From positions 1-38,332 of the IMG/VR virus record IMGVR_UViG_3300037150_000306: DNA of 38,332 bases; one strand, written 5' to 3'. This DNA comes from a virus. How positions within the stretch are numbered: position 1 is the first letter of the stretch; every line of letters begins with the position of its first letter. This document shows, one piece after another, positions 5,169 to 27,719 of this stretch. The translations under genes and the position numbers were made by a program. The notes under the pieces are model-generated. The model saw only the letters and a list, made by a program, of their open reading frames with translations, was not told where the DNA came from and did not search any database.

Positions 5169-6524
5169 ATGAGCACCACCATCAATGCGCTCCGTGAGAA
5201 ACGGAATCGTGTGGCGACGCAGATGCGTACGCTGCTGGACGCGGTGAAGAAGGAAGACCGCGGGCTCAACACCGAAGAGCGGACTCGCTGGGATGCGATG
5301 ACCGACGAGATCAACGGCATCGATGCCAGCGTCGCAGCGGAAGAGCAGTTAACGAAGATCGAGAGCTCGCTCGGCGCGATCGACGAGAGCGAGCTCACTC
5401 CGGCATTCGATGAGGTCCGCAACAGCCGCGCCGGCCGCGTCGGCCGCGCCAAAGACAACACTCCGCATGCGCTGGCGTTTCGCAAGTGGTCTCGCGGTGG
5501 TATGGAGGCGCTCGAGCCCGCCGAGCAGCAGCTGATGCGTTCGCATGCCGTTTCGAACTCGGCTCTGGGCATCAAAAACGCCCAGACCGTCACCACCACC
5601 GGCGGCGGCTACCTCATTCCGCAGGGCTTCAGCTACCAGCTGGAAGAGGCGCTGAAGTTCTTCGGCGGCATCCTCGGCGAAGTCGACGTTTTCGAGACCG
5701 CAACCGGAGCGCCGCTGCCCTGGCCGACCGCCAATGACACCGGAAGCATGGGTCGCATCCTCGCCATCAACACGCAGCTAGCGGAAACCGACATCGCGTT
5801 CGGGCAGGTGACCTTCAATGCGTATATCGGCTCGAGCGATGTCATCCTCGTGCCGATCTCGCTGATGGAGGACGCCTTCTTCGACATGGACGCCTATCTG
5901 GCTCGCGAGCTGGGGACGCGGCTGGCGCGGCAGGTGACCTACTACGGCACAGTCGGCACCGGCGTCAGCCAGCCCACCGGGATCGGGCCCGCCGTCACCA
6001 CCGCGGGGAACACGACGCAGGGTGCGAGCGGCGAGACCACGAGCTGCGTCTACGCGGATCTGGTCAACCTGCTGCATCTGGTCGATCCGGCCTACCGCAA
6101 CGCGCCGAGCTGCAAGTTCACGTTCGCGGACTCGACGCTGAAGGTGCTCCGGAAGCTGGTCGACGGCCAGAGCCGTCCTCTGTGGCAGCCGGGCCTCACG
6201 GCCGGCTTCGGGCAGGGCTTCCCGGAGACGATTCTGGACAAGCCGTACGTCATTAACCAGAGCGTTCCGGCGATGGCTGCGAGCGCCTACTCGATCCTCT
6301 TCGGCGACCTCAGCAAGTTCAAGGTGCGCGTGGTCTCCGTGGGCGGACCGAACACCGCCTCCGACAACTACGGCAAGATCGTCCGCGGCGTCACGATGAT
6401 GCGGCTGGTCGAGCGCTACGCCGATTACCTGCAGGTCGGCTTCACCGGCTTCCTGCGCTACGACTCCAACCTGATCGACGCGGGCACGCACCCGATCGCC
6501 GCGTTCCAGAACTCCGCCTCGTAG
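5169..6524 (+). CDS. Major capsid protein (HK97 fold)
   Basis: This is the shell subunit. The 451-aa product starts at ATG 5169, which follows the strong ribosome site AGGAG near 5153. A longer frame extends to 5103 but adds a non-family leader. Residues 1-70 are charged and helical (LREKRNRVATQMRTLLDAV), resembling the HK97 delta/scaffold domain that the adjacent protease would remove. Typical capsid text follows: a GGGYLIPQGF segment, PLPWPT and VPISLMEDAFFDMDAYLARELG. The C-terminal MRLVERYADYLQVGFTGFLR strand matches HK97-family capsids. It is flanked by hairpins on both sides, which suggests tuned expression of this most abundant product. Confidence 0.95.
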   Translation: MSTTINALREKRNRVATQMRTLLDAVKKEDRGLNTEERTRWDAMTDEINGIDASVAAEEQLTKIESSLGAIDESELTPAFDEVRNSRAGRVGRAKDNTPHALAFRKWSRGGMEALEPAEQQLMRSHAVSNSALGIKNAQTVTTTGGGYLIPQGFSYQLEEALKFFGGILGEVDVFETATGAPLPWPTANDTGSMGRILAINTQLAETDIAFGQVTFNAYIGSSDVILVPISLMEDAFFDMDAYLARELGTRLARQVTYYGTVGTGVSQPTGIGPAVTTAGNTTQGASGETTSCVYADLVNLLHLVDPAYRNAPSCKFTFADSTLKVLRKLVDGQSRPLWQPGLTAGFGQGFPETILDKPYVINQSVPAMAASAYSILFGDLSKFKVRVVSVGGPNTASDNYGKIVRGVTMMRLVERYADYLQVGFTGFLRYDSNLIDAGTHPIAAFQNSAS

Positions 6525-6538
6525 TTTCCACAGCCCAG

Positions 6539-6562
6539 CCCGGCAGCCAACCAGCTGCCGGG
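6539..6562 (+). promoter_or_regulatory. Hairpin after capsid gene
   Basis: A perfect 9-bp stem (CCCGGCAGC at 6539-6547, GCTGCCGGG at 6554-6562) closes a 6-nt loop just after the capsid stop. It lacks a T-tract. The likely role is partial termination or 3'-end protection of the capsid message. Confidence 0.5.
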
Positions 6563-6596
6563 CGCGCACTTACCTGTTTCGCAGGAGTTTCCGCAA

Positions 6597-6836
6597 ATGA
6601 AGATCAAGATTCTCCAGTCGATCGCGGGCCACACCGAGCCGCGCTACGGCCTTGCCGATTTCTCGTTTCCGCCGGGCGCCGTCATCGACGTGCAAACCGA
6701 TCTTGCCCGCGCGTGGATTGCCGCGGACATCGCGCTGGCCGCCGATCGCAACGACAAGCTGACCATGCCGATCGAGGTCTACACGCTCAAGTCGAAGCCC
6801 GTGCAGCCGGAGCTGCCGGCAGCGGCGGAGGAATAG
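6597..6836 (+). CDS. Small hypothetical head protein
   Basis: A 79-aa protein begins MKIKILQSIAG after a GCAGGAG ribosome site. It has a beta-rich first half and a short Ala/Asp helix, then a Pro/Glu-rich end. Small proteins in this place, between capsid and connector, are common in HK97-like phages and are sometimes annotated as head or scaffold accessories, but I recognise no domain. It sits 6 nt before the connector gene and is clearly co-transcribed with it. Confidence 0.7.
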   Translation: MKIKILQSIAGHTEPRYGLADFSFPPGAVIDVQTDLARAWIAADIALAADRNDKLTMPIEVYTLKSKPVQPELPAAAEE

Positions 6837-6842
6837 CGGCCC

Positions 6843-7700
6843 ATGGCGCTGCTGACTCTTGTCCAGCCCGTCGAGGAGCCGGTCTCGATCGCGTGGATGA
6901 AGAACTATCTGCGTCTCGACCCGGGCTTCACGACCGACGATGCGCTGATCGGCTCTCTCATCACCGCCGGGCGCGAGTGGGCGGAGAACTTCTGTGAGCG
7001 GGCCTTTGTCTTTCAGACGAAGCGCCTGCTCATGGACTTCTTCCCGGGCTACGTCGACTTCAAGCTGGCCGGGCAGCGCGTCAGTTCGCCGTTTGTCTCC
7101 GGATCCAACGCCATCCTCGTCGGCATCCGCTATGCCGTCGCGCTCCCGTGGCCGCAGGCGCGCTCGATCGAGCTGTTTCAGTATCTCGACCAGAACGGCA
7201 GCCAGCAGGAGATGGCCGAGAATGTCGATTACATTCAGGATCTCGACTCGCAGCCCGCGCGCCTGATGCCGCTCTTCGGATCGATGTGGCCCGTCGCGCG
7301 GGTCGTGGCGAACGCCGTCCAGGTTGACTACGTGACGGGATGTTGGGGACCGATCGAGGTCAGCACGATTGCGAATTCTGCGGTGCTCAGCTCGCCCTTC
7401 ACGTTCCTGCCGCGGGACGTCGGCGCAACCATCTGCATTCCAGGGGCGGAGCTGGCCGGCTCCGGGCAGTCGCTGCAAACCAGCATCGCTTCGGTCGATG
7501 CGGATGGGAATGCAACCATGGCAGCTTCGGCGGCCGCTGCGGTGACGAAGACAATCAGTTTCGGGGTGATGCCGCAGTCGGTTTTGAATGCGATCACGCT
7601 GCTCGCCTCGCACTGGTATGAGAACCGCGATCCGGATGAGAACGACATCCCCTTCGCGGTGAAGGCGCTCCTGTATCCCTATCGGGATCTGAGGCTATAG
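6843..7700 (+). CDS. Head-tail connector (gp6/phiE125 gp8-like)
   Basis: This is an adaptor that stacks under the portal and builds the connector channel. The 285-aa protein starts with the family signature: MALLTLVQPVEEPVSIAWMK, then KNYLRLD and a DDALIGSLITAGREWAENF helix (about residues 18-56). The C-terminal half ends with VLNAITLLASHWYENRD, the conserved closing helix of gp6-like connectors. The middle (about 75-225) is beta-rich and extended, as in phiE125-gp8-type proteins. It lies 6 nt after the preceding gene and 2 nt before the next. Confidence 0.88.
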   Translation: MALLTLVQPVEEPVSIAWMKNYLRLDPGFTTDDALIGSLITAGREWAENFCERAFVFQTKRLLMDFFPGYVDFKLAGQRVSSPFVSGSNAILVGIRYAVALPWPQARSIELFQYLDQNGSQQEMAENVDYIQDLDSQPARLMPLFGSMWPVARVVANAVQVDYVTGCWGPIEVSTIANSAVLSSPFTFLPRDVGATICIPGAELAGSGQSLQTSIASVDADGNATMAASAAAAVTKTISFGVMPQSVLNAITLLASHWYENRDPDENDIPFAVKALLYPYRDLRL

Positions 7701-7702
7701 AA

Positions 7703-8080
7703 ATGCCGCCGCCGAACCCACGCGCTTCCGAGCGCTTTCTCGTCATCGATTCCGGCGAACTGCGGCATCCGATCGCCATCAACGCGCCCAGCTCCACGCC
7801 GGGCCCCGATGGCGCCTCCGTCACGCCGTCCAGCTGGACGCCGGTACGGTCCACAAACGCCGCCATCTACACCGCCGGCGGCATGGAAACATCGCAGGCG
7901 AACCAGCTCGTGTCGGAATGCTCGCACGTCGTCAAGGTGCGCTGGACGCCGGACGTGCTTAAGGCCCGCTACCAGGTCGCTTTTGGATCGAGGACGTTCA
8001 TCGTGCTCTATATCGAGAACGTGCTCGAACGCAACCGCGTGCTGCTGCTGTACTGCAAGGAAGTCGACGGAGCGCAATAG
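7703..8080 (+). CDS. Head closure / head-tail joining protein
   Basis: The 125-aa, beta-rich protein carries the pattern of SPP1-gp16-like head-tail adaptors. GELRHPIAINAPSS near residue 16 and VKVRWTPDVLKARYQVAFG near the middle correspond to the usual R-G-x-L-R-H-P-I-x-I and (Y/F)xIRYRxDI(T/K) segments. The end, FIVLYIENVLERNRVLLLYCKEV, is also typical. Such proteins plug the connector after DNA packaging. Its place between connector and tail terminator supports the call. The start is ATG 7703. Confidence 0.8.
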   Translation: MPPPNPRASERFLVIDSGELRHPIAINAPSSTPGPDGASVTPSSWTPVRSTNAAIYTAGGMETSQANQLVSECSHVVKVRWTPDVLKARYQVAFGSRTFIVLYIENVLERNRVLLLYCKEVDGAQ

Positions 8081-11050: not shown

Positions 11051-11599
11051 GTGGGCGGATTCACAGTCAAAATCGAGGGGCTGCGCGAGCTCGATGCGAA
11101 GCTCAGCGAGATGAAGGATTCCCAGATCAAACGGGTGATCCGCCACGGGCTCGATGCCGGCGGCGAAGTGATGAGGCGGGCCATTGCCGAAGCGGCGCCG
11201 GAGAGGCCGGATCTGCCCAGTGAAGATGCGCTCCCGCCCGGAGCCATGAAGCAGGACATTGAAGTTCGACGCGGGCGATTCGAGGGGCTGCTGGCGGTGT
11301 TTATTGGGCCGGGGAAATACACGCGGCGCCAGGCGGGCTGGGTGGAATATGGTCATCGGCTGGTGCGGGGCGGTATTTCGCGGTTAACGAAGACGATCTT
11401 CGGAAACGTGAAATACAAGGGATCGGGTACCGAGGTGGGCGAAGTTAAACCTCATCCATTCATCCGGTCGGCCTATGAAGCGTTTCGCGAAGAAGCGGTA
11501 CAGGTAGCGGTGGACACGATGCGGGGGGAGGTCGGGCTGGGTGCGGCGCCGAGCTCGGGCCGCGGGTCGGAAGAGAACCACAGCGGGGAGGAGGACTGA
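11051..11599 (+). CDS. HK97 gp10-like neck/tail protein
   Basis: The 182-aa product starts at GTG 11051. It carries the HK97-gp10-like pattern: VKIEGLRELDAKLSEM, a helix with HGLDAGGEVMRRAIAEAAPE, an inner beta-part with VFIGPGKYTRRQAGWVEYG, and the closing HPFIRSAYEAFREEAV helix. In most HK97-like phages this gene lies between the connector and the tail tube. Here it sits just before the tape measure, after the accessory cassette. The C-terminal 25 residues are disordered and rich in Gly, Ser and Glu. Its stop overlaps the tape measure start (TGATG). Confidence 0.78.
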   Translation: MGGFTVKIEGLRELDAKLSEMKDSQIKRVIRHGLDAGGEVMRRAIAEAAPERPDLPSEDALPPGAMKQDIEVRRGRFEGLLAVFIGPGKYTRRQAGWVEYGHRLVRGGISRLTKTIFGNVKYKGSGTEVGEVKPHPFIRSAYEAFREEAVQVAVDTMRGEVGLGAAPSSGRGSEENHSGEED

Positions 11600-13977
11600 T
11601 GGCCGAAGCGGCTGGCAGTGTAAAAATCATTTTTGCGGCAGATGCGACGAGCTACAGTGCCGCGCTGTCCTCGATGCAAAAGCAGATGGATTCGTTCGCC
11701 GCCAAAGCTGGGGTGGCCGGGCGGAGCGGCGCTGCTGCCGGGCATGGCATGGTTGCGCCCTGGCAGGCCTCGTCGGCCGCCTTGCGTGTTGCTGAAGGCA
11801 ACATGACGAACAATATCCGCGCCGCGGAAAGGTTCCTCGCCACGATTCCCGGAGTGGGCCGCGCGTTGCAGGTGGCCTTCCCGGTTGTCGGAGCCGTCGC
11901 CCTTCTGGGCGTATTTGCGCGAATGGGCAACGAGGTTGTGGACTTCATCAAGAAGACGAACAAGATCCCGCAGGCGCTGGAGACTGCCTTTCGGGAATCG
12001 TTGCTGAGTGGTCAGTCGGCGGCCGACGATCTCCAGAAGGAGAACGATGCCCTCGACAATCAAATCGCGAAGCTCGAGGGACGGCCGCAAAACAATCTGG
12101 CCACGGCGATCGACGACGCCCGCATCGCGGCCGATAAGTTGGAGCAGTCGCTCATGCGCGACAATCGCGAGATTGCGGAGCTGCTGAAGCAGAACCAAAT
12201 TGGGTCGCTCGGCGAGCTGCTCACCGGTAAGGGGCGAACGACGGACGTCGCGGGAGTCGTCAACTATTGGAATCAGGAGCTGGCGAATAAGGCGAAGGAC
12301 TTCGACAGCGCGGTGCACGCATTCGGGCCAGACAGTGCGCAGGCGAAGGCCGCGCAGACTGCGCTCGCACAGCGGCGACAGGCGGCGGAAGCCAACATGC
12401 AGATGGAGATCGACGTTCGCAAGCCCGGTCCCGACCGTGCGGCGAACATTACCGGCGATCAGGCGCCGAACCTGAACATCGCCCAGGGCTATCTCGCGAT
12501 TCTGCAGCAGCAGGACAGAATGGACAGCCTGAGCGGGCAGCACGAGCAGAAGAAAAGCGTTGCGGATGCGCTGACCCACGCGCGCGAGCTGCAAGCCGCG
12601 GCAAAGGAGCGCGGCGCTCAGCAAATGCAGGCATGGCGAGAAAACCTCGAGGCGCAAAAGGCCGCCCACGCGATGACGCTCGACGAAGACGCGGCCTACT
12701 GGCAGAAGCTGGCCGACAGCGCGAAGCGCGGATCGACGCTCTACAACGCCGCACTGATGGAGGCGAATAAGGCGCGCGCCGCAAGCCAGGTCCAGGATCA
12801 GCAGCAGTTCGTCGGGGCTACGATCGAGAAGATGCGCTCCGGAGAAGCGGGCGACTCGTCGAGCGATCGCGTGCACGCCGCGCTGCAGGAACAATATGTC
12901 GGCGACGACACGCGCGAGCGAGAGATCAAACGCCAAACGGAGGAGGGCGCCACGCGCGCCTTCGCTGCGGCCGAGCAGCAGCGCAAGGCTGCGGACAGCC
13001 TCGCGGAGGAAGCGATCCGGCTGCAGGAGCAGAGCGGGCAGCTCTCCCGCGCCGGCGCCGCGCAGGCGCTCATGACGGTCCATCAGGAGAGCTTTGCGAA
13101 CTGGTCGGCGGCGTCCGCCTCGTTCTCGGCGCAGTTTCCGAATTTGGCCGTGCCGGGCGCGACGCAAGCCCTGCAGGAGTACGGGAAACAATCGCAGCAG
13201 GATGAAGCCGCGCAGGAGGCCACGACCTCGCTGGGTGCGCTGCGCGAGGCGACCGATCGCATGACGCAGGCCTTCACGGATCTGCCTGCCCACCTGGTGG
13301 AGCTGGTGAGCAGCGCGATCAGCGGCTTCAATGAGGCGTTCTCCAGTGCGGTGATGGCGCATGCGGATAGTGGTCAGGAATACCGCCGCAATATGACGAA
13401 TGCACTGGGCGGCCAGTTCCGCTCGCTCGGCGCGCGCGGCCTCGATTCCGCGCTCCAGATGGGCGAGGGCGGCCTGCTCTCGAAGCTGGGCTTCGGCAAG
13501 ATGAAGCCCGATGGCACGAAGGGTAATCCGATGTTCGTCAGCATCGTCGGCGGCGGCGCCGCGGCGCCCGGCGTGGGGCTGCTGAGCGCGCTGGGCGCAT
13601 CGGGTCCCGCCGGCACTACGGGCAGCAGCAAGGGCGGCTTCCTCTCCACGGTGCTGCCGGCGCTGACGCAGATGATTCCGCACCTGGCCTCGGGCGGTCC
13701 GCTTTCCTCGAACATGCCGGCGCTGGTCGGCGAGAACGGGCCCGAGCTCTTCATGCCGAGCAGCTCCGGCCGCATCGTGCCGAACGGAGACTTTGGAGGC
13801 GGCGGCAGCAGCGGCGACGTGCATCTCCACATCGATGCGCGCGGCGCCACGGATCCGGCGTCAGTAGGGTTTCAGATCCAGAAGGCAGTTGATCAGGTGC
13901 GGAGGGAGATCCCGGCGATCTCGCTGGCCGCACATCGGCAATACAATCGCGCGCGGCCGGGATCGTCGCGGGTCTAG
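11599..13977 (+). CDS. Tape measure protein
   Basis: This sets tail length and leads DNA entry. The 792-aa, mostly helical protein has the usual N-terminus (VKIIFAADATSYSAALSSMQ), a hydrophobic helix near 86-107 (FPVVGAVALLGVFARMG) and long Ala/Gln/Glu coiled-coil regions (about 120-590). The C-terminus carries the hallmark PALVGENGPELFMPSSSGRI (about 706-725). At roughly 0.15 nm per residue the tail would be about 119 nm. This scaling is established for siphophages; the value here is inference. Its stop TAG (13975-13977) lies in a CTAG shared with the antisense gene. Confidence 0.93.
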   Translation: MAEAAGSVKIIFAADATSYSAALSSMQKQMDSFAAKAGVAGRSGAAAGHGMVAPWQASSAALRVAEGNMTNNIRAAERFLATIPGVGRALQVAFPVVGAVALLGVFARMGNEVVDFIKKTNKIPQALETAFRESLLSGQSAADDLQKENDALDNQIAKLEGRPQNNLATAIDDARIAADKLEQSLMRDNREIAELLKQNQIGSLGELLTGKGRTTDVAGVVNYWNQELANKAKDFDSAVHAFGPDSAQAKAAQTALAQRRQAAEANMQMEIDVRKPGPDRAANITGDQAPNLNIAQGYLAILQQQDRMDSLSGQHEQKKSVADALTHARELQAAAKERGAQQMQAWRENLEAQKAAHAMTLDEDAAYWQKLADSAKRGSTLYNAALMEANKARAASQVQDQQQFVGATIEKMRSGEAGDSSSDRVHAALQEQYVGDDTREREIKRQTEEGATRAFAAAEQQRKAADSLAEEAIRLQEQSGQLSRAGAAQALMTVHQESFANWSAASASFSAQFPNLAVPGATQALQEYGKQSQQDEAAQEATTSLGALREATDRMTQAFTDLPAHLVELVSSAISGFNEAFSSAVMAHADSGQEYRRNMTNALGGQFRSLGARGLDSALQMGEGGLLSKLGFGKMKPDGTKGNPMFVSIVGGGAAAPGVGLLSALGASGPAGTTGSSKGGFLSTVLPALTQMIPHLASGGPLSSNMPALVGENGPELFMPSSSGRIVPNGDFGGGGSSGDVHLHIDARGATDPASVGFQIQKAVDQVRREIPAISLAAHRQYNRARPGSSRV

Positions 13978-14195
13978 GAACTCGATGGAGGATGTTTCTG
14001 CGCTATCTCAATCGCTTGAGCGCGGTCGATGTTGCCGTCGATTATCAGCCGCCCGGCAACGGCGAGGGCTAAGTTGTGAATCGCCACGACTTGATCTTCA
14101 GTGAACCCGACCTCAAGCATGCGAGTGAAGGTTTCGGTCACAGTTTTCGTAACGCTCGCCAGATGTTCTAGTGCCTCTGTTTTATCGTCTGCCAT
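13974..14195 (-). CDS. Small antisense-strand protein
   Basis: The only convincing complete minus-strand gene here encodes 73 aa. It is mainly helical and composition-balanced: MADDKTEALEHLASVTKTV, then FTEDQVVAIHNLALAVAG and a DGNIDRAQAIEIA repeat-like segment. It is unlike the Arg/Pro-rich shadow frames. No good ribosome site precedes its ATG. Its stop TAG is read from the same CTAG (13974-13977) that ends the tape measure, so the two genes converge exactly. The function is unknown. A regulator or anti-host peptide is possible. Confidence 0.55.
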   Translation of the reverse strand: MADDKTEALEHLASVTKTVTETFTRMLEVGFTEDQVVAIHNLALAVAGRLIIDGNIDRAQAIEIAQKHPPSSS

Positions 14196-14243
14196 AGCGT
14201 CAACATTTTAAATCCCGGGCCGTTCAACCCGACCTTGTCAACA

Positions 14244-14272
14244 GCTCCGCTCACCGCGGGGCTTTTCTTTTG
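14244..14272 (+). terminator. Rho-independent terminator before giant gene
   Basis: AGCTCCGC (14244-14251) pairs with GCGGGGCT (14257-14264), with one G-T pair and a 5-nt loop, and is followed by TTTCTTTT. It lies between the tape measure and the 14285 gene, so the giant gene may depend on read-through or its own promoter, which I could not identify. Confidence 0.65.
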
Positions 14273-14284
14273 GGGAGATCTCCG

Positions 14285-17200
14285 ATGAAACGCTGGATTC
14301 CGGGCGCGCTCGCCGCGCTGCTGCTGCTGCCGTGTGCTTTCGCACAAACCGGCTATGTGACGATGACGGCGGCCAACCTGACCGATCAGAGCGGCAGCGG
14401 CGCGCTCCTCTCGAACGCGACGGCGACGTTTTGTCTCACGAACGCCGCCGGAACGCCGATCGGCGTGCATATCGGATCGAGCGCCGGCGGTCAGGCGGCG
14501 CCCCGCTGTTCGTCGGGCCCGGTGAATAACGGCGCGCTGGTTGGGACGTGGCAGACGGCCGACCCCGGCGCCGCGGGCACGAATATGGTGCCGGATCCGG
14601 CCTTCACAGCCGCCCTGGGTACAAACTGGACGAATCCGTCGTCGACGACGACGCCTCCGGTACACAGCGCCGAATGCGATACGATGCCGTCCGCGTCGCA
14701 TACCACCGTCTCGTGCACCGTGACCGGACTGCTCGGCGGCGAGACAGTCATCCTGAGCACACTTAGGCTAGGCAACCCCACAGTGATCTCCCTGACGGAC
14801 TCGGCCGGTCAAACGCCGGTCGTGTTCCACACAGTCGTTTGGGGCGGCAACGCCTACGACGGATATGTTTTATCGAATGCGAGCGCCGGTTCGCACACCT
14901 TTACTCTGACGGTGGCAACGGCGGTGACCTATCTGGGCCTGCGCGCCGATGTCTTCTCGGGAACGCCACTGGCAAATCCAATCGACGCGTTTAGCTGGAA
15001 TAACGCCAGCTGCTCGGGTACTACGGTGAGCGGGTCACCGGTAACGACAACCCTGGCCAACGAGACCGTATTTGCATGGGGCCAGGCGAGCGGTTCCACA
15101 GCGCTGACCGCGGGATCGGGTTACACCCTCTATCCGCAATCTGGCGGCGGCCCGAGCGATTCAGCCGGAGAGACGATCGCCGCAACGTCGCCCGGAGCAG
15201 TGACTGCCTCGTTTGGCCAGTCTGGCGGGAGCTTATGCGTGGTCAGGACCGTTGCGCTGAAGCCGCTGGTGCCATGGCTGATTGCTAACACCGGTTCACC
15301 GCAGGCGGGGCTGAACTATCTCGCGGCCGGATCGTCTGCGAGCGGGACGAACGCGTATTCGCAGTCAGCCGCGATTACGGTGATTCCGGGGCAGACCTAC
15401 ACGTTCGCGGGGTATATCAACGCCGTTGGCGTCACCGCAGGGAGCCTTTATTGGCAGGTGTGGGCCCCGGGTCCGGGGACGCAGTTGGGCGCAGCCGCAG
15501 CCACGCTGGGCGCGTCGGGCGATTACACTGTCCAGTTCACCGCCCCGGCGGGAGTGACATCCGTTCTGGTGCGAGCTGTGATCAACTCGCTGGCGATTAC
15601 GCCCGGTGACACAGCCGCATTCGCGGAACCCCTGCTGCAGGCCGGCAGCGCGCGGCTCGTCGATACCAACCTCAGCAACCCGCAGAATCCGTGCGAGGGG
15701 CTCACGATCACCGACAACGTCAGCGGCAGCGTCCTGCTGGGCGGACCGGGATCCGGCTACACCTGCCTGCAGCCGCAATGGACGGAAAGCGCGCCGATGA
15801 GCTGCGTCGCCGGCGTCTGCAACCTTGACAGCTATATCCCGACGACTACGCCCGGGGTGATGCAGGTCTCCGGGATCGCCGGGCCAGTGGGTCCGGCAGG
15901 TCCAGCGGGGCCAGCGGGGCCTGCGGGGGCGTCGTCGGGGTTGGTTTGGGTCAAGCCGGAGAACTATGGCGCGAAGGGCGATCTTAAGAGGGTCTTCGAC
16001 GCCTTCACCGTCATGCCGGGAACGAGCAACTATTCCTCCGCGGTCGCGTCTCCGCTGGCGGTCACGGCGAGCAGCAATGACGTTGTCGTGACCTGGTTTG
16101 GATACTACGGAACGTGGGGCACCACACCGTCTGCCGGAACCTCGCGGATCAACGTCGCCGCGGACTCCTCTCACTATGGCGGCCTCGTCTTCGATCAGAC
16201 CATCGCTTCACCGCAAACGGTCGCGGCGGTGACGGGATCGATCACGACGCAAAATGGCTGGACTTCGGGGCGGCTCGTATTGAAGCCCACCACAGGCCAA
16301 ACGATTACATTCGTTGGCGCGAGTGATGTGCAGGAGTCCTCCGGCAGCACCTCGATCACGGTCAACGTACCCAGTGGCGTCGCGAATGGAGATTTCATGC
16401 TCGCATGCGCGACGGTTGCGAACGCCGGAGGGTTCAACTCCCTCACCGCTCCCGCAGCCTGGGGAACGCAGGAGTACGTGGCGTTTGCTCTGCCGAATAC
16501 CGCGGGGAATCCGGACACGGGGATCCATACAGCCTGCTGGCCCCGCACGGCATCCAGCGAGCCGTCCAGCTATACGTGGACGGAGGGCGCAAGCTATTTC
16601 AATTTTGCCTTCATTGTCGCCTATCGCAACGTTTCCGGAATTGATGGGAACACAGCCGCGAACCAGCTGCAATCGTTCTCCGGCACCTTCTCGTCGGCCG
16701 ACGCTGGAAAGCGCATCTGCCTGCAGAAATCCAGTTCGGCGTCCAACGGCCTGGGGCAAACCTGCGGCACGATCACGGCTTATAACCCGCCAGCTGCTGG
16801 CGGTCTCAGTTCGATCACTCTCAGCTTTACTCCGGGTACGCTCGTCTCCGGCGTGGAAGCAGTGTACGCGTCCGACGACTATCCGGATTTTCACACGATG
16901 CTGAGCACTGCGCCCTGCGCCATTCCAGGACCAGGGTGTCATGTCTACCTGTCTTCAAAATACGGTCTCAGCAGCGGTCTGGCGCTCGCGCAAGGCAACC
17001 TTGCGTTTGCCATGGGCGGGGACGGCGCCGGGATGCCGTGGAGCGCGAACGATTTCCTTTCCGGTGTGCCGCCGCAGGACAGTGGCACGCAGCTTGTATT
17101 TCTCACGACCTCGCTTTCTTCGACAACTCCGGGGCTCCTGATCAGCGGCGGCTCGACGTTGAACTCCAGCCTTGCGAATGTTGAGCTGGATCGTTTTTCC

Positions 17201-17953
17201 CTCATCGGGGGCGCAGGCGATAACGGTGATGGAGCCGGCGGCGACGGTCTGGATGTTCTGAACTGGCAGGGCTTAAAGGCGGAAGGAGTCCAGATAGCGA
17301 ATTTCGCCGGCAATGGGATACTCCTGGATGGCGTATCCGGACCGCCCTACTCCTACACCGAGAACACGGTGTTCGATTTCGGGATCATCACCCTGAACCA
17401 CGGAGCCGCGATTAAAACGGGCTCGAATACCCCCAATATCGAGACGGTCGCGGTCACCAACTCGGACATCGAAGGCAACGGAGGGCCGGCATTCAATATC
17501 ACTTCTCCCGGTGCGGTGCAGGGTCTGCGGATCGAGAGCAACACGATCCAGTGGAACAATCGAAACGCCGCTGCGGCCGAGATCACGCTGGCTGCGACGG
17601 GGCAGATCACAGGCTGCGACATTCGCGGCAATTACTTCGAGCCAGACAATGTCTTCGGCGGGAAAAGCAACGCCGTCCTCACGAACGTCGCGGCGGCCAT
17701 CGGCTGCGAGTGGGGAAATAACAAGAACTTCTTCAATGCAGGCATCCCTCCTTACCTGACTTTTTCGGCTGCAGGCACGCCCCTGCCGGCATGCTCCGCC
17801 TCAAGCGCCGCGCTGAATGCAAGCACGGCGTATGTGACCGACGCTACCGCCTGCACGAGCGGCACGACCTACACCTCCGGCGGATCGACAGCCTGCAAGG
17901 TCCTCTGCACGGGTGGCAACTGGGTCGAAACCGGCTACGGATACCCGTACTAA
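14285..17953 (+). CDS. Giant signal-peptide protein with collagen-like repeats and beta-helix (tailspike- or adhesin-like)
   Basis: The 1222-aa product starts at ATG 14285 after GGGGAG; an in-frame TTG further upstream adds nothing. Residues 1-20 form a clear Sec signal peptide (A-F-A|Q cleavage), which is abnormal for a phage tail protein. Beta-rich Ser/Thr/Gly domains (about 20-525) follow. Next comes a run of Gly-Pro-x triplets (about 533-549) and then KPENYGAKGD (about 557-566), the entry motif of pectate-lyase-like beta-helix tailspikes. Two beta-sandwich-like segments lie at about 580-800. Right-handed beta-helix text (NVELDRFSLIGG, GLKAEGVQIANFAGNGILLDG) lies at about 966-1112. Receptor binding or glycan cleavage is an inference. 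It lies between tape measure and tail tip, behind a terminator. Confidence 0.8.
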   Translation: MKRWIPGALAALLLLPCAFAQTGYVTMTAANLTDQSGSGALLSNATATFCLTNAAGTPIGVHIGSSAGGQAAPRCSSGPVNNGALVGTWQTADPGAAGTNMVPDPAFTAALGTNWTNPSSTTTPPVHSAECDTMPSASHTTVSCTVTGLLGGETVILSTLRLGNPTVISLTDSAGQTPVVFHTVVWGGNAYDGYVLSNASAGSHTFTLTVATAVTYLGLRADVFSGTPLANPIDAFSWNNASCSGTTVSGSPVTTTLANETVFAWGQASGSTALTAGSGYTLYPQSGGGPSDSAGETIAATSPGAVTASFGQSGGSLCVVRTVALKPLVPWLIANTGSPQAGLNYLAAGSSASGTNAYSQSAAITVIPGQTYTFAGYINAVGVTAGSLYWQVWAPGPGTQLGAAAATLGASGDYTVQFTAPAGVTSVLVRAVINSLAITPGDTAAFAEPLLQAGSARLVDTNLSNPQNPCEGLTITDNVSGSVLLGGPGSGYTCLQPQWTESAPMSCVAGVCNLDSYIPTTTPGVMQVSGIAGPVGPAGPAGPAGPAGASSGLVWVKPENYGAKGDLKRVFDAFTVMPGTSNYSSAVASPLAVTASSNDVVVTWFGYYGTWGTTPSAGTSRINVAADSSHYGGLVFDQTIASPQTVAAVTGSITTQNGWTSGRLVLKPTTGQTITFVGASDVQESSGSTSITVNVPSGVANGDFMLACATVANAGGFNSLTAPAAWGTQEYVAFALPNTAGNPDTGIHTACWPRTASSEPSSYTWTEGASYFNFAFIVAYRNVSGIDGNTAANQLQSFSGTFSSADAGKRICLQKSSSASNGLGQTCGTITAYNPPAAGGLSSITLSFTPGTLVSGVEAVYASDDYPDFHTMLSTAPCAIPGPGCHVYLSSKYGLSSGLALAQGNLAFAMGGDGAGMPWSANDFLSGVPPQDSGTQLVFLTTSLSSTTPGLLISGGSTLNSSLANVELDRFSLIGGAGDNGDGAGGDGLDVLNWQGLKAEGVQIANFAGNGILLDGVSGPPYSYTENTVFDFGIITLNHGAAIKTGSNTPNIETVAVTNSDIEGNGGPAFNITSPGAVQGLRIESNTIQWNNRNAAAAEITLAATGQITGCDIRGNYFEPDNVFGGKSNAVLTNVAAAIGCEWGNNKNFFNAGIPPYLTFSAAGTPLPACSASSAALNASTAYVTDATACTSGTTYTSGGSTACKVLCTGGNWVETGYGYPY

Positions 17954-17974: not shown

Positions 17975-18628
17975 ATGCAGACCATCACCATCAACGGCAC
18001 CAGCTACTCGCTGGTGACGATCCCGACCTCGCCGGGTCCGGCCGACATAGAGATCGGCATGAACGATCTCATCGCGCTCCAGATGTCGCCCTACACGCTG
18101 CAGCAGCAAACGCAGCAGTGGCCGGGCGGCGACTGGTGGGACGCGAAGGTTACGCTTCCCTCCATGGCGACGGCCACCGCCGCGCCCTGGGAGGCGTTTC
18201 TGGCCGAGCTGCGCGGTCCGCTCAACGTCTTCCAGCTCTCCGATCCGCGCCACCAGAAACCGATGGGCAACACCGGGGCCTCGACGCCGAAGATCGACAG
18301 CGGGACCTATGCGACGACGACGTCGAGTATCGGCACGGTGGGCTGGCAGCCCGATCAGGCGCGCGTCCTGTTGCGCGGCGATCGCTTCCAGCTCGGCTAC
18401 CGCCTGCATATGGTGGTGGATTCCGATGTCAGCTCCAACAGCAGCGGCGCGGCGACCATCTCCATCTGGCCGTCGCTGCGCGAGCCGCCGACCGCCGGCG
18501 AGCCGCTCATCCTGAAGTGTCCGAAGGGCCTCTTCCGGCTCGCGCCCGCCGGCGCGCGCCGCATGCTGAGCGCGTCGCCGCGGCAGCTCACGCGGATCGG
18601 CAGCTTTCCCTGCCTCGAGGTGCGATAG
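17975..18628 (+). CDS. Distal-tail-like protein
   Basis: The 217-aa, beta-rich protein follows the giant gene by 21 nt. It contains QQWPGGDWWDAKVTLPSM and a C-terminal strand set ending TRIGSFPCLEVR. It is the first of a conserved tip cassette: this gene, the 186-aa gene, the NlpC/P60-like gene and the J-like hub. The position after the tape measure suggests a Dit-like ring protein, but I recognise no named domain with certainty. Confidence 0.7.
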   Translation: MQTITINGTSYSLVTIPTSPGPADIEIGMNDLIALQMSPYTLQQQTQQWPGGDWWDAKVTLPSMATATAAPWEAFLAELRGPLNVFQLSDPRHQKPMGNTGASTPKIDSGTYATTTSSIGTVGWQPDQARVLLRGDRFQLGYRLHMVVDSDVSSNSSGAATISIWPSLREPPTAGEPLILKCPKGLFRLAPAGARRMLSASPRQLTRIGSFPCLEVR

Positions 18629-19190: not shown

Positions 19191-19745
19191 ATGAGCACAA
19201 ATCTGACAACCCCCGCCGTGGCGGGGAAGGCGAAGGTGTCTCCAGCGCAGCCGCCGCTGAAGAATGCCCGCGTGGCGAATTGGGCGATCGAGCATTATCA
19301 CGACTTCCTGCTCGCGCGCGCGAAGATGCCGTTTGCCTGGGGAACGAACGACTGCGCGATGTTCTGCGCGGATGGAATTCAAACGATGATCGGCGTCGAT
19401 ATCGCCGCCGACTTTCGCGGCCAATACACCGATCAGGCCTCGGCGCTCGCTGCGATCAAGGCGATCGCCGGGGGCGCGACCATCGCCGACGCGGCGGCGT
19501 GGTGCGCGTCGAAGCACGGTCTGGTCGAGTGGGAGCATCCGCGGATGGCGAAGCGCGGCGATCTGGTGATCGCACTGGATGGAGAAGCGGGCCCGCTGGC
19601 CGCGCTGGTGCATCTGAACGGCGCCGACGTCGTCGCACCGGGCGACGCGGGCCTGCGCCGGCTGCCGATCACCGCGGTGGTGCGCAGCTGGCATGTGGGG
19701 CCCGTGGAGCACGCGCGGACTTTCTGGAGTCAGCACAATGTCTAA
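19191..19745 (+). CDS. NlpC/P60-like tail peptidase (DUF6950-like)
   Basis: The 184-aa protein has the conserved PFAWGTNDCAMFCADGI segment (about 46-62). DCAMF is the position of the catalytic-type Cys-containing helix of NlpC/P60-like folds. A C-terminal MAKRGDLVIALD strand with the histidine-bearing LVHLNGADVVAPG follows. The family sits before the central hub gene in many siphophages and is thought to help cell-wall entry. The likely active-site Cys is about residue 54, while the His and Asp are inferred. It overlaps the next gene by 8 nt. Confidence 0.78.
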   Translation: MSTNLTTPAVAGKAKVSPAQPPLKNARVANWAIEHYHDFLLARAKMPFAWGTNDCAMFCADGIQTMIGVDIAADFRGQYTDQASALAAIKAIAGGATIADAAAWCASKHGLVEWEHPRMAKRGDLVIALDGEAGPLAALVHLNGADVVAPGDAGLRRLPITAVVRSWHVGPVEHARTFWSQHNV

Positions 19746-22700
19746 AGCGATCGAGGGCGCGGCCATGCTGGCCGGTTCCATCGGGATGAGCTTTGTGGCC
19801 GCGGCGACGGGCGGCGGGCTCTTTCTGAACCCGCTGTACGACAAGGTGATGTTCGCGCTCGCTGTCGGCGGCATTAGCATGGAGGCGGGTGCGATCGCGC
19901 AGGCGCTCACGCAGCAGCGTGGCCAGAACATCACCACGCGGCAGCCCGCCTGCTACCGCCAGGTCATCTATGGCACGCAGCGCGTGGGCGGCGTCATCGT
20001 CTACCAGTCCACCACCGGCAGCAAATACGACCAGTACAACCTCGTCATCGTGCTGGCCACCCACGTCGTCGAGGCGATCGAGAACCTGTATCTCGACGGC
20101 CGCCGCGTCTATTGGGCGGGGGGTACCGGCAACGTCACGCGCAACGGCTTCAATTTTGGAGGCGCTGCCGGCGGCGGCGATCAAATCGGTCCCAACGGTG
20201 CGCACTACAACTTCGACACGCTGGTCTACTGCGAGGCGCGCTTCGGCGATCAGGCGGACGGCGACGTGATCGGAGGCCTCACCGCCAACGATCCCAATTG
20301 GGCGGCGAGCGGCGGACAGGCGCCGTATCTGGGCGGCTGCGCTTATGTCTATCTTAAGATCGAGTACGACGCGGCGATGTTCGGGCAGTTCCCGGAAATC
20401 CGCTTCACGGTGCACGGCAAGAACGACATCTACGATCCGCGCACCAGCGTCGCGGTCTATGACACCCCCAACCTACAAACGCTTTCCGGTTGGGGGTTGC
20501 ATACCGAAGGCACCGGCACCCCGCCAACCACTACGCCACCGACCACCTTTGCCTCCATCGGAGGTGTTGCGCCAACCACTTACTCATTCACGCCGGGGAC
20601 CGGTGGGGCCACTGCTCTGACCATGGCGTGCGCTAACACCGGTTCCGCCTATGCCGATTGGATGGCCTATCTGGCCCCGCGCCCCATCTTATCCAGCACA
20701 GGCAATCTCAAGCTCAGTCTCACGTTGACTCCAGATGCCAGTTGCGCAACCTACGCGCAGTGCATCGAGATTGACACCATCATCTCCTATGGTGGCTACA
20801 ACTACAACGGAAGTTGCCAGCTCAACTACGCTGAAGGCGGCCACTTTCAAATCGTGAACGCGGCCGGCGCGTGGGTGGATTGCGGATTCAATCCAGGCAT
20901 CCTGTCGGCTGGTGTGGCTCATACCCTCGTTTTCACCTATGCGTATGACACCACAGCCAAAACGTTTTCCTTCGTATCAATCGAGTTGGACGGGACGGTG
21001 TACACCATCTCCGGCACTTTGCAGAATGTGCCCGCATCCTTAATGGGCTGGGCGACGGGTGTCATTCTGCAGTTACAGCAGGACTTAAACAGCACTACCG
21101 GCGCGCACATGTCCTTTACGGTTGACAACGTCCAGTATTCATGGCCGGGAAGCGGGTCTTCTGGATACAGCACGAATGCGGCCCTGATCTGCGCCGATAT
21201 TCTCTCGGGTTCTCCCTGGGGACTGAACGACAGCACCGTGAATCAGGCGCAGCTGATCGCCGCGGCCAACGTCTGCGACGAGACGGTGACCTGCGTGGCC
21301 GGCAGCGAGGCGCGCTACGCGGCGCACTGGCACTACGACACCAGCACGCCGCCGGGCGAGGCGTTGAAGGTTTTCCTGTCGACGATGGGCGGCCGCATCA
21401 CGCGTGCCGGCGGCGAGTGGTTCCTGTGGCCGGCATACTGGCAGGGGCCGAGCGCGGCTTTCGACGAGAACATCCTGCTCGACACGCCGCAGTGGAATCC
21501 GTACCGCAAACCGGACGAGCTCATCAACCGCGTCAATGGCACCTACCTCGCGCCGAACTATCCGTACAACGTGGCGGGCGACCTCTACGACGCCAACGGC
21601 TGGTACGACGGCTCCATCGCGAATCAGTTCCCTTTCGCTTTTCAGCCGACAAACTTTCCGCAGTACGCCGCCGACGTCCTCCACGGCTATCCCAGCGATC
21701 AGTACCTGACCGAGGACGGGAATTATCAGCTGCCGCTCGAGCTGGAGCTGAAGGCGGTGCTCTCGGTGAGCCAGGCGCAGCGTCTGGCAAAGATCGCGCT
21801 GCTGCGCAACCGCCAGCAGGGCTCGGGCGTCCTCAAGATGAAGCTCGGCGCCTTCGGCGTTACGGGGCTCGATGTCATCACGATGAGCTTTGCGCAGCTG
21901 GGCTGGAGCAGCTACGCGCTCGAAGTCTCCGGAGAGCCGCAGCTCACCTGCAGCGAGGCCGAGTTCGACGAGGAGGGCAAAGTCGTCCGCGCGCCGGAGC
22001 TGTCGTTGCAGGTGCCGGTGCAGGATACCTCCTCCACGGTCTACGCGGATCTGGGTTCGGGCGAGGAGCTGACGCCCTACGATGTGCCCAGCACAACGAA
22101 TCAGGCGCCGTACATCCCGGCTCCGCCGACCAGTATGACGCTGGTCTCCGGCGCCGCGACCGCGGTTGAGGGTGCGGACGGGGTAACCATCCCGCGTGTG
22201 CTGGTCGAGTGGACGGATCCAGCCGACATTCTCGCGGTGCAGGTGATCATCCAGTTCCAGCTCCACGCCGCCGGCAGCTGGCAGACAGGAGGCATTGTCC
22301 CGGTCGGCGACGAGCAGGCCTTCGTCGGCGGCGTCGTGGCCGGCGTGGTCTACGACTTCCGCATCTGCTCGCTGCGCGCCAACGGCGCGGTCTCGGAGTG
22401 GCTCGAGCAGGACAGCTACACGGTCAGCGCGACGCTGTCGATCGTGAAGTCCACGGGCCTCAATCCGAACTCGCCCTTCAACGTCGAGAACGATGCGGTG
22501 CTCGATTCCATCGTCGACGGCAGCGGCAGCGCGGCGGAGATTCGCATCTACGGACCGGGCGGTATCGGCACGGCCTGGGACAACTACACCGGGCAGGGAA
22601 GCGCGACCTATCCGGCGGCTTCGATCTCGGGCCTCGCGTTCTCCTCGCCCTACACGCTGGTCTACGACACGGTGACCTCGGGCTACCTGGCGCTGGCGAC

Positions 22701-22842
22701 CTACACCGATGCGCTGAGCGACAGCTACATCATGGTTGGCTGGGTTACCACCTGCGCCTCAGGCGGGACGGGCAGCGGAAGCGGGGGCGGCGGCGGCACG
22801 GGCGCCGGCGGCGGCGGCGGCCGGGGATACCCAACGGTTTAG
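19738..22842 (+). CDS. Central tail hub / host-specificity protein (J-like) with inserted domain
   Basis: The 1034-aa product starts at ATG 19738, inside the end of the preceding gene. The N-terminal hydrophobic stretch and RQPACYRQVIYGTQRVGG are typical of J-like hubs, as is the GKNDIYDPRTS segment near 236. In relatives this is normally followed almost at once by YSTNAALICADIL-type text, but here that appears near 480. The roughly 240 residues in between (nt 20461-21165) form a Cys/Thr/Tyr-rich beta-sandwich-like insert with visibly lower GC. The hub continues to a fibronectin-like part (about 800-900) and a Gly-rich end (GGGGTGAGGGGGRG). It probably binds the receptor and triggers infection. 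Confidence 0.88.
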   Translation: MSKAIEGAAMLAGSIGMSFVAAATGGGLFLNPLYDKVMFALAVGGISMEAGAIAQALTQQRGQNITTRQPACYRQVIYGTQRVGGVIVYQSTTGSKYDQYNLVIVLATHVVEAIENLYLDGRRVYWAGGTGNVTRNGFNFGGAAGGGDQIGPNGAHYNFDTLVYCEARFGDQADGDVIGGLTANDPNWAASGGQAPYLGGCAYVYLKIEYDAAMFGQFPEIRFTVHGKNDIYDPRTSVAVYDTPNLQTLSGWGLHTEGTGTPPTTTPPTTFASIGGVAPTTYSFTPGTGGATALTMACANTGSAYADWMAYLAPRPILSSTGNLKLSLTLTPDASCATYAQCIEIDTIISYGGYNYNGSCQLNYAEGGHFQIVNAAGAWVDCGFNPGILSAGVAHTLVFTYAYDTTAKTFSFVSIELDGTVYTISGTLQNVPASLMGWATGVILQLQQDLNSTTGAHMSFTVDNVQYSWPGSGSSGYSTNAALICADILSGSPWGLNDSTVNQAQLIAAANVCDETVTCVAGSEARYAAHWHYDTSTPPGEALKVFLSTMGGRITRAGGEWFLWPAYWQGPSAAFDENILLDTPQWNPYRKPDELINRVNGTYLAPNYPYNVAGDLYDANGWYDGSIANQFPFAFQPTNFPQYAADVLHGYPSDQYLTEDGNYQLPLELELKAVLSVSQAQRLAKIALLRNRQQGSGVLKMKLGAFGVTGLDVITMSFAQLGWSSYALEVSGEPQLTCSEAEFDEEGKVVRAPELSLQVPVQDTSSTVYADLGSGEELTPYDVPSTTNQAPYIPAPPTSMTLVSGAATAVEGADGVTIPRVLVEWTDPADILAVQVIIQFQLHAAGSWQTGGIVPVGDEQAFVGGVVAGVVYDFRICSLRANGAVSEWLEQDSYTVSATLSIVKSTGLNPNSPFNVENDAVLDSIVDGSGSAAEIRIYGPGGIGTAWDNYTGQGSATYPAASISGLAFSSPYTLVYDTVTSGYLALATYTDALSDSYIMVGWVTTCASGGTGSGSGGGGGTGAGGGGGRGYPTV

Positions 22843-23748: not shown

Positions 23749-23802
23749 AGGTTTTTCGGAGAGGAAGGGAGGTCGCGGACAATTCGCCAGAGCTAGCGGA
23801 AT

Positions 23803-23840
23803 GCGGGAGGCACGCCGTGCGCGCTCCCGCTTCTGCTTAT
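23803..23840 (+). terminator. Hairpin terminator after late operon
   Basis: GCGGGAG (23803-23809) pairs with CTCCCGC (23824-23830), with an inner GCAC/GTGC pairing, and is followed by the T-rich TTCTGCTTAT. It closes the tail operon on the + strand. Confidence 0.55.
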
Positions 23841-23940
23841 TTCAGCTTCTCTTTCTCGGCCAGCGTGCGCAGCGCGCGGCGCAGCACTTCCGCTCGGCTC
23901 AGGAGGCCGGTTTTCTTCTGCAGCCGGGCCAGCAGCCCGG
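23837..23940 (-). pseudogene. Fragment of ribbon-helix-helix regulator gene
   Basis: The minus strand reads into text typical of the C-terminal part of RHH antitoxin/CopG-like proteins: LLARLQKKTGLLSRAEVLRR, then ALRTLAEKEKLK and a stop at 23837-23839. Upstream (beyond about 23940) the frame is only antisense to the integrase fragment, so the N-terminal beta-strand and start codon are missing. I treat it as a broken gene fused to the integrase remnant at about 23935-23940. Confidence 0.5.
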
Positions 23941-24205
23941 GCTCAACTGGCTGCGACCCTACGATCTGCGCCACACCGCGATCACGCGGATGGCGGAGGC
24001 GGGCGTGCCGATCCATGTGATTATGAGCTTTGCCGGGCACATGAGCGCGAAGATGCAGCTGCACTACACCAGCATCAGTATGGCGTCGAAGCGGGAGTGG
24101 GCGCAGAGGGCGTTCGAGATGCCGACGTGGGAGCAGACCGCGCAGGCGCTGAAGAAACCGAGCGTGAGCGTGGGGATCGAGCGGCGCAGAGCGGGAGCGG
24201 GCTAA
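23938..24205 (+). pseudogene. int: C-terminal fragment of tyrosine recombinase (integrase)
   Basis: The frame encodes the box II end of a phage integrase: LRPYDLRHTAITRMAEAG, then SFAGHMSAKMQLHYTSIS. It holds the Arg of LRH, the His of AGH and the catalytic Tyr of HYTSI. The first box-II position is Tyr (PYDLRH) rather than the commoner His. The arm-binding and core-binding domains and the box I Arg are absent. The frame upstream is antisense to the RHH fragment, so only the last 88 codons or so are real. Such a piece cannot recombine DNA by itself. It lies close to the tRNA-Lys-like element at 24508, the expected partner of an integrase. Confidence 0.75.
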
Positions 24206-24507: not shown

Positions 24508-24583
24508 GATCCCCGCCCGGAGGAAATCGGCCAACGCCCTTTTAAGGCGTGGGTCCTGGGTTCGAATCCCAGCGGGCTCACCA
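24508..24583 (+). tRNA. tRNA-Lys(UUU)-like element, probably relic attachment core
   Basis: The 3' two-thirds are perfect: anticodon stem ACGCC/GGCGT with loop CTTTTAA (24534-24550), a 5-nt variable loop, T arm CTGGG TTCGAAT CCCAG (24556-24572), acceptor CGGGCTC, A and CCA (24573-24583). Folded as a 76-nt tRNA from 24508, the 5' part is poor: 5 of 7 acceptor pairs, a 3-bp D stem and no U8. It may be a degenerate tRNA-Lys, or the tRNA 3' end carried as an attP core next to the integrase remnant. I favour the second reading. Confidence 0.55.
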
Positions 24584-25792: not shown

Positions 25793-26040
25793 TCCGCGCG
25801 TTGCGCATCCCGCTCTGGCTCCTGTGGACGCTGCTGTTGGCCGCGTTGCTGTTCTGCGGCTGGCAATGGTATCGCGCCCAGCGCGAGGCCGCGACCTACC
25901 GCGACGCGCTCGGCGAGCTCGGCGTGCGCTGTGTGCGCGTCGACCAGCCCGCTGGCGCTCTGGTCTGTGTGACCTCGCGGGGCGACGCCTTCGCTGTCGG
26001 TTTCCGCCAGCCCGTGCGCAGTGAAGGAGACGAGCAATGA
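25789..26040 (+). CDS. Single-pass membrane protein
   Basis: The 83-aa product starts at ATG 25789, overlapping the previous stop (ATGA). It has an N-terminal membrane helix (PLWLLWTLLLAALLFCGW, about 8-25), then a soluble tail with an RCVRVDQ...VCVTSRGD segment holding two cysteines that could form a disulfide. It may anchor or secrete a small domain. Its function is unknown. The next gene starts 4 nt before its end. Confidence 0.68.
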   Translation: MIRALRIPLWLLWTLLLAALLFCGWQWYRAQREAATYRDALGELGVRCVRVDQPAGALVCVTSRGDAFAVGFRQPVRSEGDEQ

Positions 26041-27719
26041 CCGCCTCCAAAGTTCAGGAGATGCCAAAGCACGCGCCCGCCGGGATGACCGTGCGCTCGA
26101 TCCCTCGCGAAGCGCTCCAGGCCGCGCCCTGGAACGCGCGGACGAGCTTCGATGACGAAGCGATGGACGGGCTGAAGGCCTCGATCGCGCAGCACGGAAT
26201 CCTTGTGCCGCTGATCGTGCGCCCGATTGCAGGTCGCTCCGGCAGCTACGAAATCGTCGCAGGCCACCGCCGTTATCTTGCCTCGCTGAACCCTGAGCTG
26301 CCCTGCGATGTGCGCGAGCTCAGCGATGCCGAGGCGCGGGAAGTGGGCCTCATCGACAACCTGCAGCGGCAGGACCTGTCGGCGCTGGAAGAGGCCGAGG
26401 CCTACCAGCAGATGTTTCGTCTCGCCGGAGACAGCGGTCGCCCGCTGACACCGGCTGAGCTCGCGGCGCGGGTGGGCAAAAGTGAGGGCTATGTCCGCCT
26501 GCGTCTGCGACTGCTCATCGCCGACGCCGAGGTGCGCGACGCGCTGCGCGAGGGCACGATCCTGCTCGGGCACGCGCTGGAGCTGGCGCGGCTGGAATCC
26601 TCGGCGCAGAAGACGCTGCTGCAGTGGCTGCTCTTCGAGGAGTGGGGCAGCGGGAAGCAGAAGCGGAAGGACGTGCCCAGCCTCGCCGAGCTGAAGCGGC
26701 ACATCGCCGAGGAGATCCTGCTCGATCTGGCGAAGGCGCCCTTCGACACGAAGGATGCGCAGCTGGTGCCACAGGCCGGATCGTGCCTCGACTGCCTAAA
26801 GCGGACCGGCAACAACAAGCTGCTGTTCGCCGACGTGAAGCAGGGCGACACCTGCACCGATCCCGGCTGCTTCGCAGGCAAGGTGACGCGGGCGATCGAC
26901 GTGGCCGTCGAGCAGCTGACGGCGAAGGGCAAGAAGGTGGTGCGGATCTCGGAGAACTGGCAACGCGCCGCCACGCTGCCGAAGGACGCGCTGATCAGCA
27001 GCCAGTACACCGCGCTGCAGGGGCACATCCGCAACGCGCAGCAGGAGTGCCCCGATTTTGCGGTCGGGGTCTACGTCGACGGCCACGAGCGCGGCAAGCG
27101 GCAGAACGTATGCCTCGCGAAGAAGTGCAAGGTGCATGGATATCAGCGCGAGTCTGTCGCCCGCCCGACGCTGACCGCGAAGGACGTCGAGAAGAAAGCG
27201 AACCTCGATGTCGAGCGGACGGCGCGGCAGAGGATTTTCGCGGCGGTGACCGAGAAGGCTCTCAGGCTGACGAAGGCGACCGACGCGATGATTCGCGCGG
27301 TTGCGCTCACGGCGATATTCGAGTTCGGCGGCGAGGCCCTGATGAAGGCGGTCGGCTGGCCAGAGAAGACGTTTGTGAGCAAGAAGGAGCTCGCGGCGAA
27401 GGTGCACGCGCTGCCGGCGTCGAAGGCGGTCGCGATCGCGATGCTGTCATCGTGCTGCGATGACCTTCGCGTCTGCGAGTATTCGGGGAAGCCGGAGTGC
27501 CTTGAGGCGGCCGCGATGGCTTTCGGGGTTCATACGGGCGCAATCCGCAAAGTCGTGGCGGCGGAGTTTGCGGCGAAGGGAAAGAAGCCGGCGGCGAAGA
27601 AGGCGGTTGCGAAGAAGGCCACGAAAAAAGCTGTGGCGAAACGGCCCGTGCTGTCCGGAGCGGCGCGCGCGAAGATCGCTGCCGCGCAGAAGGCGCGCTG
27701 GGTGAAGGCGAAGGCATGA
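26037..27719 (+). CDS. ParB-like DNA-binding protein with zinc cluster and basic tail
   Basis: The 560-aa protein has the ParB/Spo0J N-terminal nuclease/CTPase-type domain with the conserved box YEIVAGHRRYLAS (71-83). It continues with DNLQRQDLSALEEAEAY (107-123) and a helix-turn-helix (LTPAELAARVGKSEGYVRLR, about 136-155). A cysteine cluster follows (CLDCLKRTG, then CTDPGCF, about 258-285). The last 60 residues are a Lys/Ala-rich histone-H1-like tail (KKAVAKKATKKAVAK). No ParA partner and no obvious parS are visible, so the protein may act as a regulator or DNA organiser rather than in partition. It lies in the early operon. Confidence 0.8.
   Translation: MTASKVQEMPKHAPAGMTVRSIPREALQAAPWNARTSFDDEAMDGLKASIAQHGILVPLIVRPIAGRSGSYEIVAGHRRYLASLNPELPCDVRELSDAEAREVGLIDNLQRQDLSALEEAEAYQQMFRLAGDSGRPLTPAELAARVGKSEGYVRLRLRLLIADAEVRDALREGTILLGHALELARLESSAQKTLLQWLLFEEWGSGKQKRKDVPSLAELKRHIAEEILLDLAKAPFDTKDAQLVPQAGSCLDCLKRTGNNKLLFADVKQGDTCTDPGCFAGKVTRAIDVAVEQLTAKGKKVVRISENWQRAATLPKDALISSQYTALQGHIRNAQQECPDFAVGVYVDGHERGKRQNVCLAKKCKVHGYQRESVARPTLTAKDVEKKANLDVERTARQRIFAAVTEKALRLTKATDAMIRAVALTAIFEFGGEALMKAVGWPEKTFVSKKELAAKVHALPASKAVAIAMLSSCCDDLRVCEYSGKPECLEAAAMAFGVHTGAIRKVVAAEFAAKGKKPAAKKAVAKKATKKAVAKRPVLSGAARAKIAAAQKARWVKAKA

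Follow-up and report, generated by a model that had tools for sequence, protein, structure and literature searches.

The cytoplasm is regarded as the site where the fibres of tailed phages fold and are assembled. Lambda Stf (PF08400) has a conserved N-terminus with a beta-sandwich fold and a variable C-terminus, and is encoded in the tail gene module, but it lacks a signal peptide and its gene is placed after J, not between tape measure and Dit. Tailspike depolymerases carry pectate-lyase or SGNH/GDSL domains and are not known to use Sec for export. Exported phage morons such as lambda Lom are encoded inside the tail region; Lom is a small outer-membrane protein, however, and neither a fibre nor a depolymerase. 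PblA and PblB of streptococcal prophages are tail-module proteins that serve as surface adhesins, and a signal peptide has been predicted for pneumococcal PblB (PMC4508584). In the open literature, a coverage outside which most subscription journals lie, no Sec-exported tail fibres of tailed phages were found.

Here, a likely exported tail-fibre-like protein is described from the window, i.e., the whole stretch of DNA that was analysed, a 38.3-kb IMG/VR virus record from a virus of bacteria with siphophage gene order. The protein belongs to an unnamed family in which one gene slot houses both exported and non-exported versions, and in which the disulfide cysteines come and go with the signal. 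Such a family amounts to a natural experiment on the place where a receptor-binding protein folds and is added to the particle, and it could account for the use of disulfide-stabilised adhesins by phages. Export also raises the question how such a fibre reaches a particle that is put together in the cell interior. Should the product be absent from the virion, the family would represent a widespread, as yet unnamed class of adhesins or depolymerases that are encoded in tail operons and secreted by phages. By description, PblA and PblB share with it the tail-module gene and perhaps the surface role, but differ in their Gram-positive hosts and show no evidence of its cysteine signature.

The window gene and its product

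Genes in the window are ordered as TerL, portal, protease, capsid, connectors, major tail protein, tape measure, the gene of the exported protein and Dit, followed by a second tail protein, a DUF6950 protein and a J-like central fibre. On re-reading of the sequence, the original prediction was right on the open reading frame, its length and its coordinates. Its placement of the gene between tape measure and tail tip agrees with a tape-measure-like neighbour upstream and Dit downstream, which is likewise the typical slot of the family. The features are as follows.

11599..13977, + strand: tape-measure-like protein, upstream neighbour (phrog_5062, E 0.0015)
14243..14263, + strand: terminator-like hairpin just 5′ of the ribosome-binding site, from a hairpin search; recurs in L003 and L006
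14285..17953, + strand: exported tail-fibre-like protein gene, by reading of the open reading frame (1222 aa plus stop)
14285..14344, + strand: predicted Sec signal peptide, residues 1-20 (MKRWIPGALAALLLLPCAFA, followed by Q; predicted cleavage between AFA and Q), by n/h/c-region score; kept in near relatives, swapped for a different one in L002
14345..14551, + strand: conserved N-terminal domain, first half, residues 21-89, from alignments
14432..14509, + strand: codons of C50 and C75, a third, optional pair of cysteines whose counterpart columns 92 and 268 always co-occur
14552..15658, + strand: insertion of ~369 aa within the N-terminal domain, residues 90-458; L003 has a shorter one and L006 none
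15659..15844, + strand: conserved N-terminal domain, second half, residues 459-520, from alignments (DTNL..PQN.C...GYxCxQP...C..GxC.xDxYxP)
15692..15820, + strand: codons of the core cysteines C470, C494, C507 and C512; all four are found only in members with a signal peptide
15881..15925, + strand: collagen-like Gly-Pro-x triplets (five GPx), residues 533-547, from the translation; Pfam Collagen in 9/34 relatives
15968..15982, + strand: GAKGD motif, residues 562-566, from the translation; followed by an insertion ahead of the helix-like repeats
16880..17734, + strand: probable right-handed beta-helix, residues ~866-1150, from the repeat pattern by eye; pectate-lyase-like Pfam match only in 4/34 relatives
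17975..18628, + strand: distal tail protein (Dit), downstream neighbour (phrog_1302, E 1.5e-29)
19693..22842, + strand: central tail fibre J-like protein (phrog_5616, E 9e-48; J and tail proteins of phages matched by tblastn)

A Shine–Dalgarno sequence, GGGGAG at 14272-14277, precedes the ATG at 14285. The signal peptide was scored with a simple n/h/c-region score of our own, which is not SignalP; no other window gene or mechanical open reading frame comes within 0.5 of the value for the window protein, except the same frame with an upstream start, and shuffled first residues reach that value in 21 of 20,000 cases. Both results bear out the clear signal peptide that had been claimed. A relative in another contig, L002, is 91% identical to the window protein but stands behind a different signal peptide, VRRLLPAFLCLLSFTAFA followed by Q, so the function of the signal is conserved and not its letters. 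The window protein thus has what defines a Sec-exported protein, a cleavable signal peptide with functional conservation, and the pairing of its cysteines tracks the signal.

The protein had been characterized as a giant beta-helix and collagen-like protein. The Gly-Pro-x triplets and the GAKGD motif are indeed present in the translation, whereas the C-terminal right-handed beta-helix is probable from its repeat motif: the window protein has no match in Pfam, including the pectate-lyase superfamily PF12708, and the full-length model, with a pLDDT of 38, does not confirm the helix by structure. A sequence comparison of the window protein with the PDB gave no match either.

Signal peptide and cysteines across the family

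The first loci of the family were viral contigs fetched by Dit, which share the slot, the signal peptide and the N-terminal domain and have different remainders. Profile searches with the N-terminal domain then enlarged the set to 48 distinct members. Annotated phage and plasmid collections yielded no relatives of the window protein or its N-domain, and neither did two scans of genome contigs with strict patterns.

Conservation of the signal, which had been proposed as a check, is seen in 38 of the 48 members, and most of these tagged members have an AxA-type cleavage site followed by Q. For L045a, L080, L083 and L084 the signal peptide was assigned by eye; L030 has a weak one, and L084 an ambiguous start. 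In the other ten members the protein begins with the mature domain itself, for instance with MPTGYTQV in L051 and MGYTTVSG in L048. As the gap between the upstream stop and the start is below 60 nt in L048 (58 nt), L051 (41 nt) and L093 (37 nt), there is too little room for a signal peptide. Homologues starting downstream of the hydrophobic segment had been named as evidence against the prediction, and in these ten they exist. However, the ten also lack the disulfide cysteines, which argues for two real states, exported and cytoplasmic, instead of a spurious signal and makes the case for export stronger. The domain is 58-59% identical between the tagged L055 and the untagged L051 or L048. A tree of the family requires four changes of signal state, with weak support, and does not reject a single origin (38-member set, AU p 0.31). 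The tagged L097 and L101, both with the first core cysteine, lie inside a mostly untagged group that lacks strong support.

The cysteines follow the signal closely, with the reservation that the relatedness of the sequences makes the counts interdependent. All 38 tagged members have one or more complete cysteine pairs in the domain, and the ten untagged ones have none; the first core cysteine occurs in 35/38 and 0/10, respectively. In an unbiased subset, made up of the earlier scans and a search that accepted C, G or A at the site of the first core cysteine, the full set of four core cysteines occurs in 30 of 33 tagged vs. none of five untagged members (Fisher 1.1e-4). When the last search is included, the core pair of first and second cysteine is complete in 34/38 vs. 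0/10, a comparison that, like the count for the first core cysteine alone, is biased at the first column, since one of the two patterns of that search selected G or A there. The optional columns 92 and 268 are both cysteine in nine members and singly in none. Cysteine parity, which is less open to search bias than the core columns, gives the same picture: the count in the domain is even in 38/38 tagged and 2/10 untagged members, and in the whole mature protein in 31/34 and 3/8, despite unrelated C-terminal modules. Even parity is typical of disulfide-bonded extracytoplasmic proteins. Cysteine pairs and parity together make export of the tagged members into an oxidising compartment well supported at the sequence level.

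These data also bear on whether the protein is an ordinary cytoplasmic tail fibre, with a hydrophobic start that is incidental or a true start further downstream. The ten homologues that start exactly at the mature domain are what such a fibre would look like. Still, this explanation is largely refuted and has very little probability left, in view of the good Shine–Dalgarno sequence ahead of the signal-peptide start, the different signal peptide that replaces that of the window protein in L002, and the restriction of cysteine pairs to tagged members, with even parity tracking the tag. An uncleaved signal peptide that holds the fibre at the inner membrane, where it would act in assembly or lysis, is the least probable explanation of all: nothing specific speaks for it, and the AxA-type sites followed by Q speak against it. 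From the sequence evidence it is instead highly probable that the protein is produced late, together with the remaining tail proteins, passes through Sec with loss of residues 1-20, and acquires two or more disulfides as it folds outside the cytoplasm.

Architecture and origin

Members of the family consist of a conserved N-terminal beta-sandwich of ~130 aa, often followed by collagen-like repeats and then by interchangeable C-terminal modules, among which are a GDSL esterase, a pectate-lyase beta-helix and a beta-propeller. In 34 full-length members, Pfam recognizes collagen (nine), GDSL lipases (seven) and pectate-lyase-like domains (four), as well as carbohydrate-binding modules; the pectate-lyase and GDSL modules are those of the tailspike depolymerases mentioned above. 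Among the PHROGs, the C-termini match families of tail fibres, collagen-like minor tail proteins and tail spikes. Nearly all members with mapped surroundings lie in a tail-gene module, typically in the slot between tape measure and Dit, otherwise before the tape measure or after J. The family thus has the tail-module position, the conserved N-terminus and the exchangeable C-terminal receptor or enzyme modules of tail fibres and tailspikes. A start at the docking domain without a signal peptide, as in Stf, is found in the ten untagged relatives only and not in the window protein.

The model of the N-domain (pLDDT 70) is a beta-sandwich, and its best structural matches, with Z values below 8 that may reflect a common fold only, are residues 1-105 of the tail fibre of cyanophage A-1(L) (Z 7.8), the N-terminus of lambda Stf (9e7m_Ta, confirmed as Stf; Z 7.5, 93/94 residues, rmsd 3.1) and the Bxb1 tail tip (Z 7.0). 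The best predicted viral proteins matched include minor tail and tail fibre proteins; the first named one, from Arthrobacter phage BlueFeather, is apparently gp17 (judged by its length of 441 aa), a protein that lacks a signal peptide. By sequence, PF08400 has no match at E 10 in the window and seven relative records, and a profile-profile comparison of the N-domain with Stf-like N-termini gave none. By its model the N-domain bears a weak likeness to tail-fibre attachment domains such as that of Stf. Because of this fold likeness and the untagged members in the same slot, a tail-fibre origin of the exported protein is likely. The N-domain is probably a former or present tail-docking domain, and the C-terminal beta-helix would bind or cut surface polysaccharide.

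Several loci have additional members. L045 has tandem signal-peptide members between tape measure and Dit, at 2729-4090 and 4503-7781. In L004 a second tagged member lies after J, and the L017 record contains another member (L084). The member at 7905-16372 of L030, cut by the stretch that was fetched, exceeds 2,800 aa and has a GDSL-like region.

Destination and expression of the exported protein

The original prediction had left the choice between an exported adhesin or depolymerase and a fibre with an unusual assembly route, and of this, export stands, on the signal, the cysteine pairs and the parity. Our favoured explanation is a receptor-binding protein of the tail-fibre or tailspike type with an acquired or kept Sec signal peptide that docks after lysis, and we consider this reading as a whole to be evenly poised between right and wrong. 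Lysis would mix the compartments, and the exported protein has perhaps an even chance of then docking through its N-domain onto tails already assembled in the cytoplasm. The argument for this step is that the untagged relatives in this slot have retained the domain, which a cytoplasmic protein can use only on the virion. Against docking, we know of no route other than after lysis by which a periplasmic protein could join a tail assembled in the cytoplasm. Two further observations count against it: L004 and L045 have two tagged copies each, and the copy in L002 (contig 3300037130_000238) is in a phage that is Mu-like by its transposase and transposition proteins and has none of the structural genes of the window. 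In that contig, the gene lies at the end, on the strand opposite to an unrelated head-tail module, although the contig stops at its stop codon.

The same observations favour an exported non-virion product, an adhesin or depolymerase derived from a fibre (as indicated by position, modules, fold and untagged relatives), which is secreted late or in lysogens and reuses the N-domain as an anchor. It might coat the host, block superinfection, or destroy receptors or surface polysaccharide so that progeny are not trapped. Besides the signal peptide and the cysteines, this is in line with the enzymatic GDSL and pectate-lyase C-termini and with L047, where Dit directly follows the tape measure and the empty slot indicates that the gene is optional. 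It is also in line with lambda lom, whose annotation reads outer host membrane protein and which adjoins orf-401/stf in the lambda tail region. However, an envelope anchor does not explain the retention of the domain, at about 55-60% identity, by untagged members in this slot, and neither an outer-membrane barrel nor a lipid anchor was recognised. Moreover, without a promoter-like site expression is likely just before lysis, when a host coat would be of little use. On balance this non-virion product is possible, if somewhat improbable as formulated; docking is favoured slightly over an adhesin or depolymerase that stays free or on the host surface, which is nearly as likely. If docking occurs, some tailed phages would have Sec-exported, periplasm-oxidised fibres that are added at lysis, while close relatives use the same fibre without the detour, a generalization that we advance tentatively and rate a little short of even.

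Expression late rather than in lysogens fits best, as the gene lies in the tail operon and a scan for sigma-70-type consensus sites found no promoter-like site near it. As to the promoter and terminator of its own that a Lom-type gene would have, no promoter-like site was seen within the reach of that consensus, and terminator-like sites in the region number three, with 3.2 expected by chance. The terminator that had been placed ahead of the gene does correspond to a hairpin, also seen in the nearest relatives L003 and L006, but a strict scan of the 48 members found such a hairpin in one, which is not the window, and it was rejected as a family feature. Likewise, the antisense gene noted upstream exists as an open reading frame (13974-14195), but it has no relative in any fetched locus, is missing from the matching gap of L003, and was rejected as part of the system.

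Elsewhere in the window, a hairpin, T-run and Shine–Dalgarno sequence just before an open reading frame, at 34875-34929, resemble 14243-14284, and a ParB-like protein is encoded at 26037-27719 (phrog_4715; Pfam ParB_N and HTH_ParB). The tyrosine-recombinase open reading frame at 23801-24205 (134 aa) looks like a deletion remnant: it aligns to both ends of a 522-aa frame in L004 (16014-17582), with ~394 codons missing in between. Just before this L004 frame lies a second exported paralogue, which is absent from the window. A tRNA-Lys (TTT) at 24508-24583, close to the integrase remnant, is a possible attachment site.
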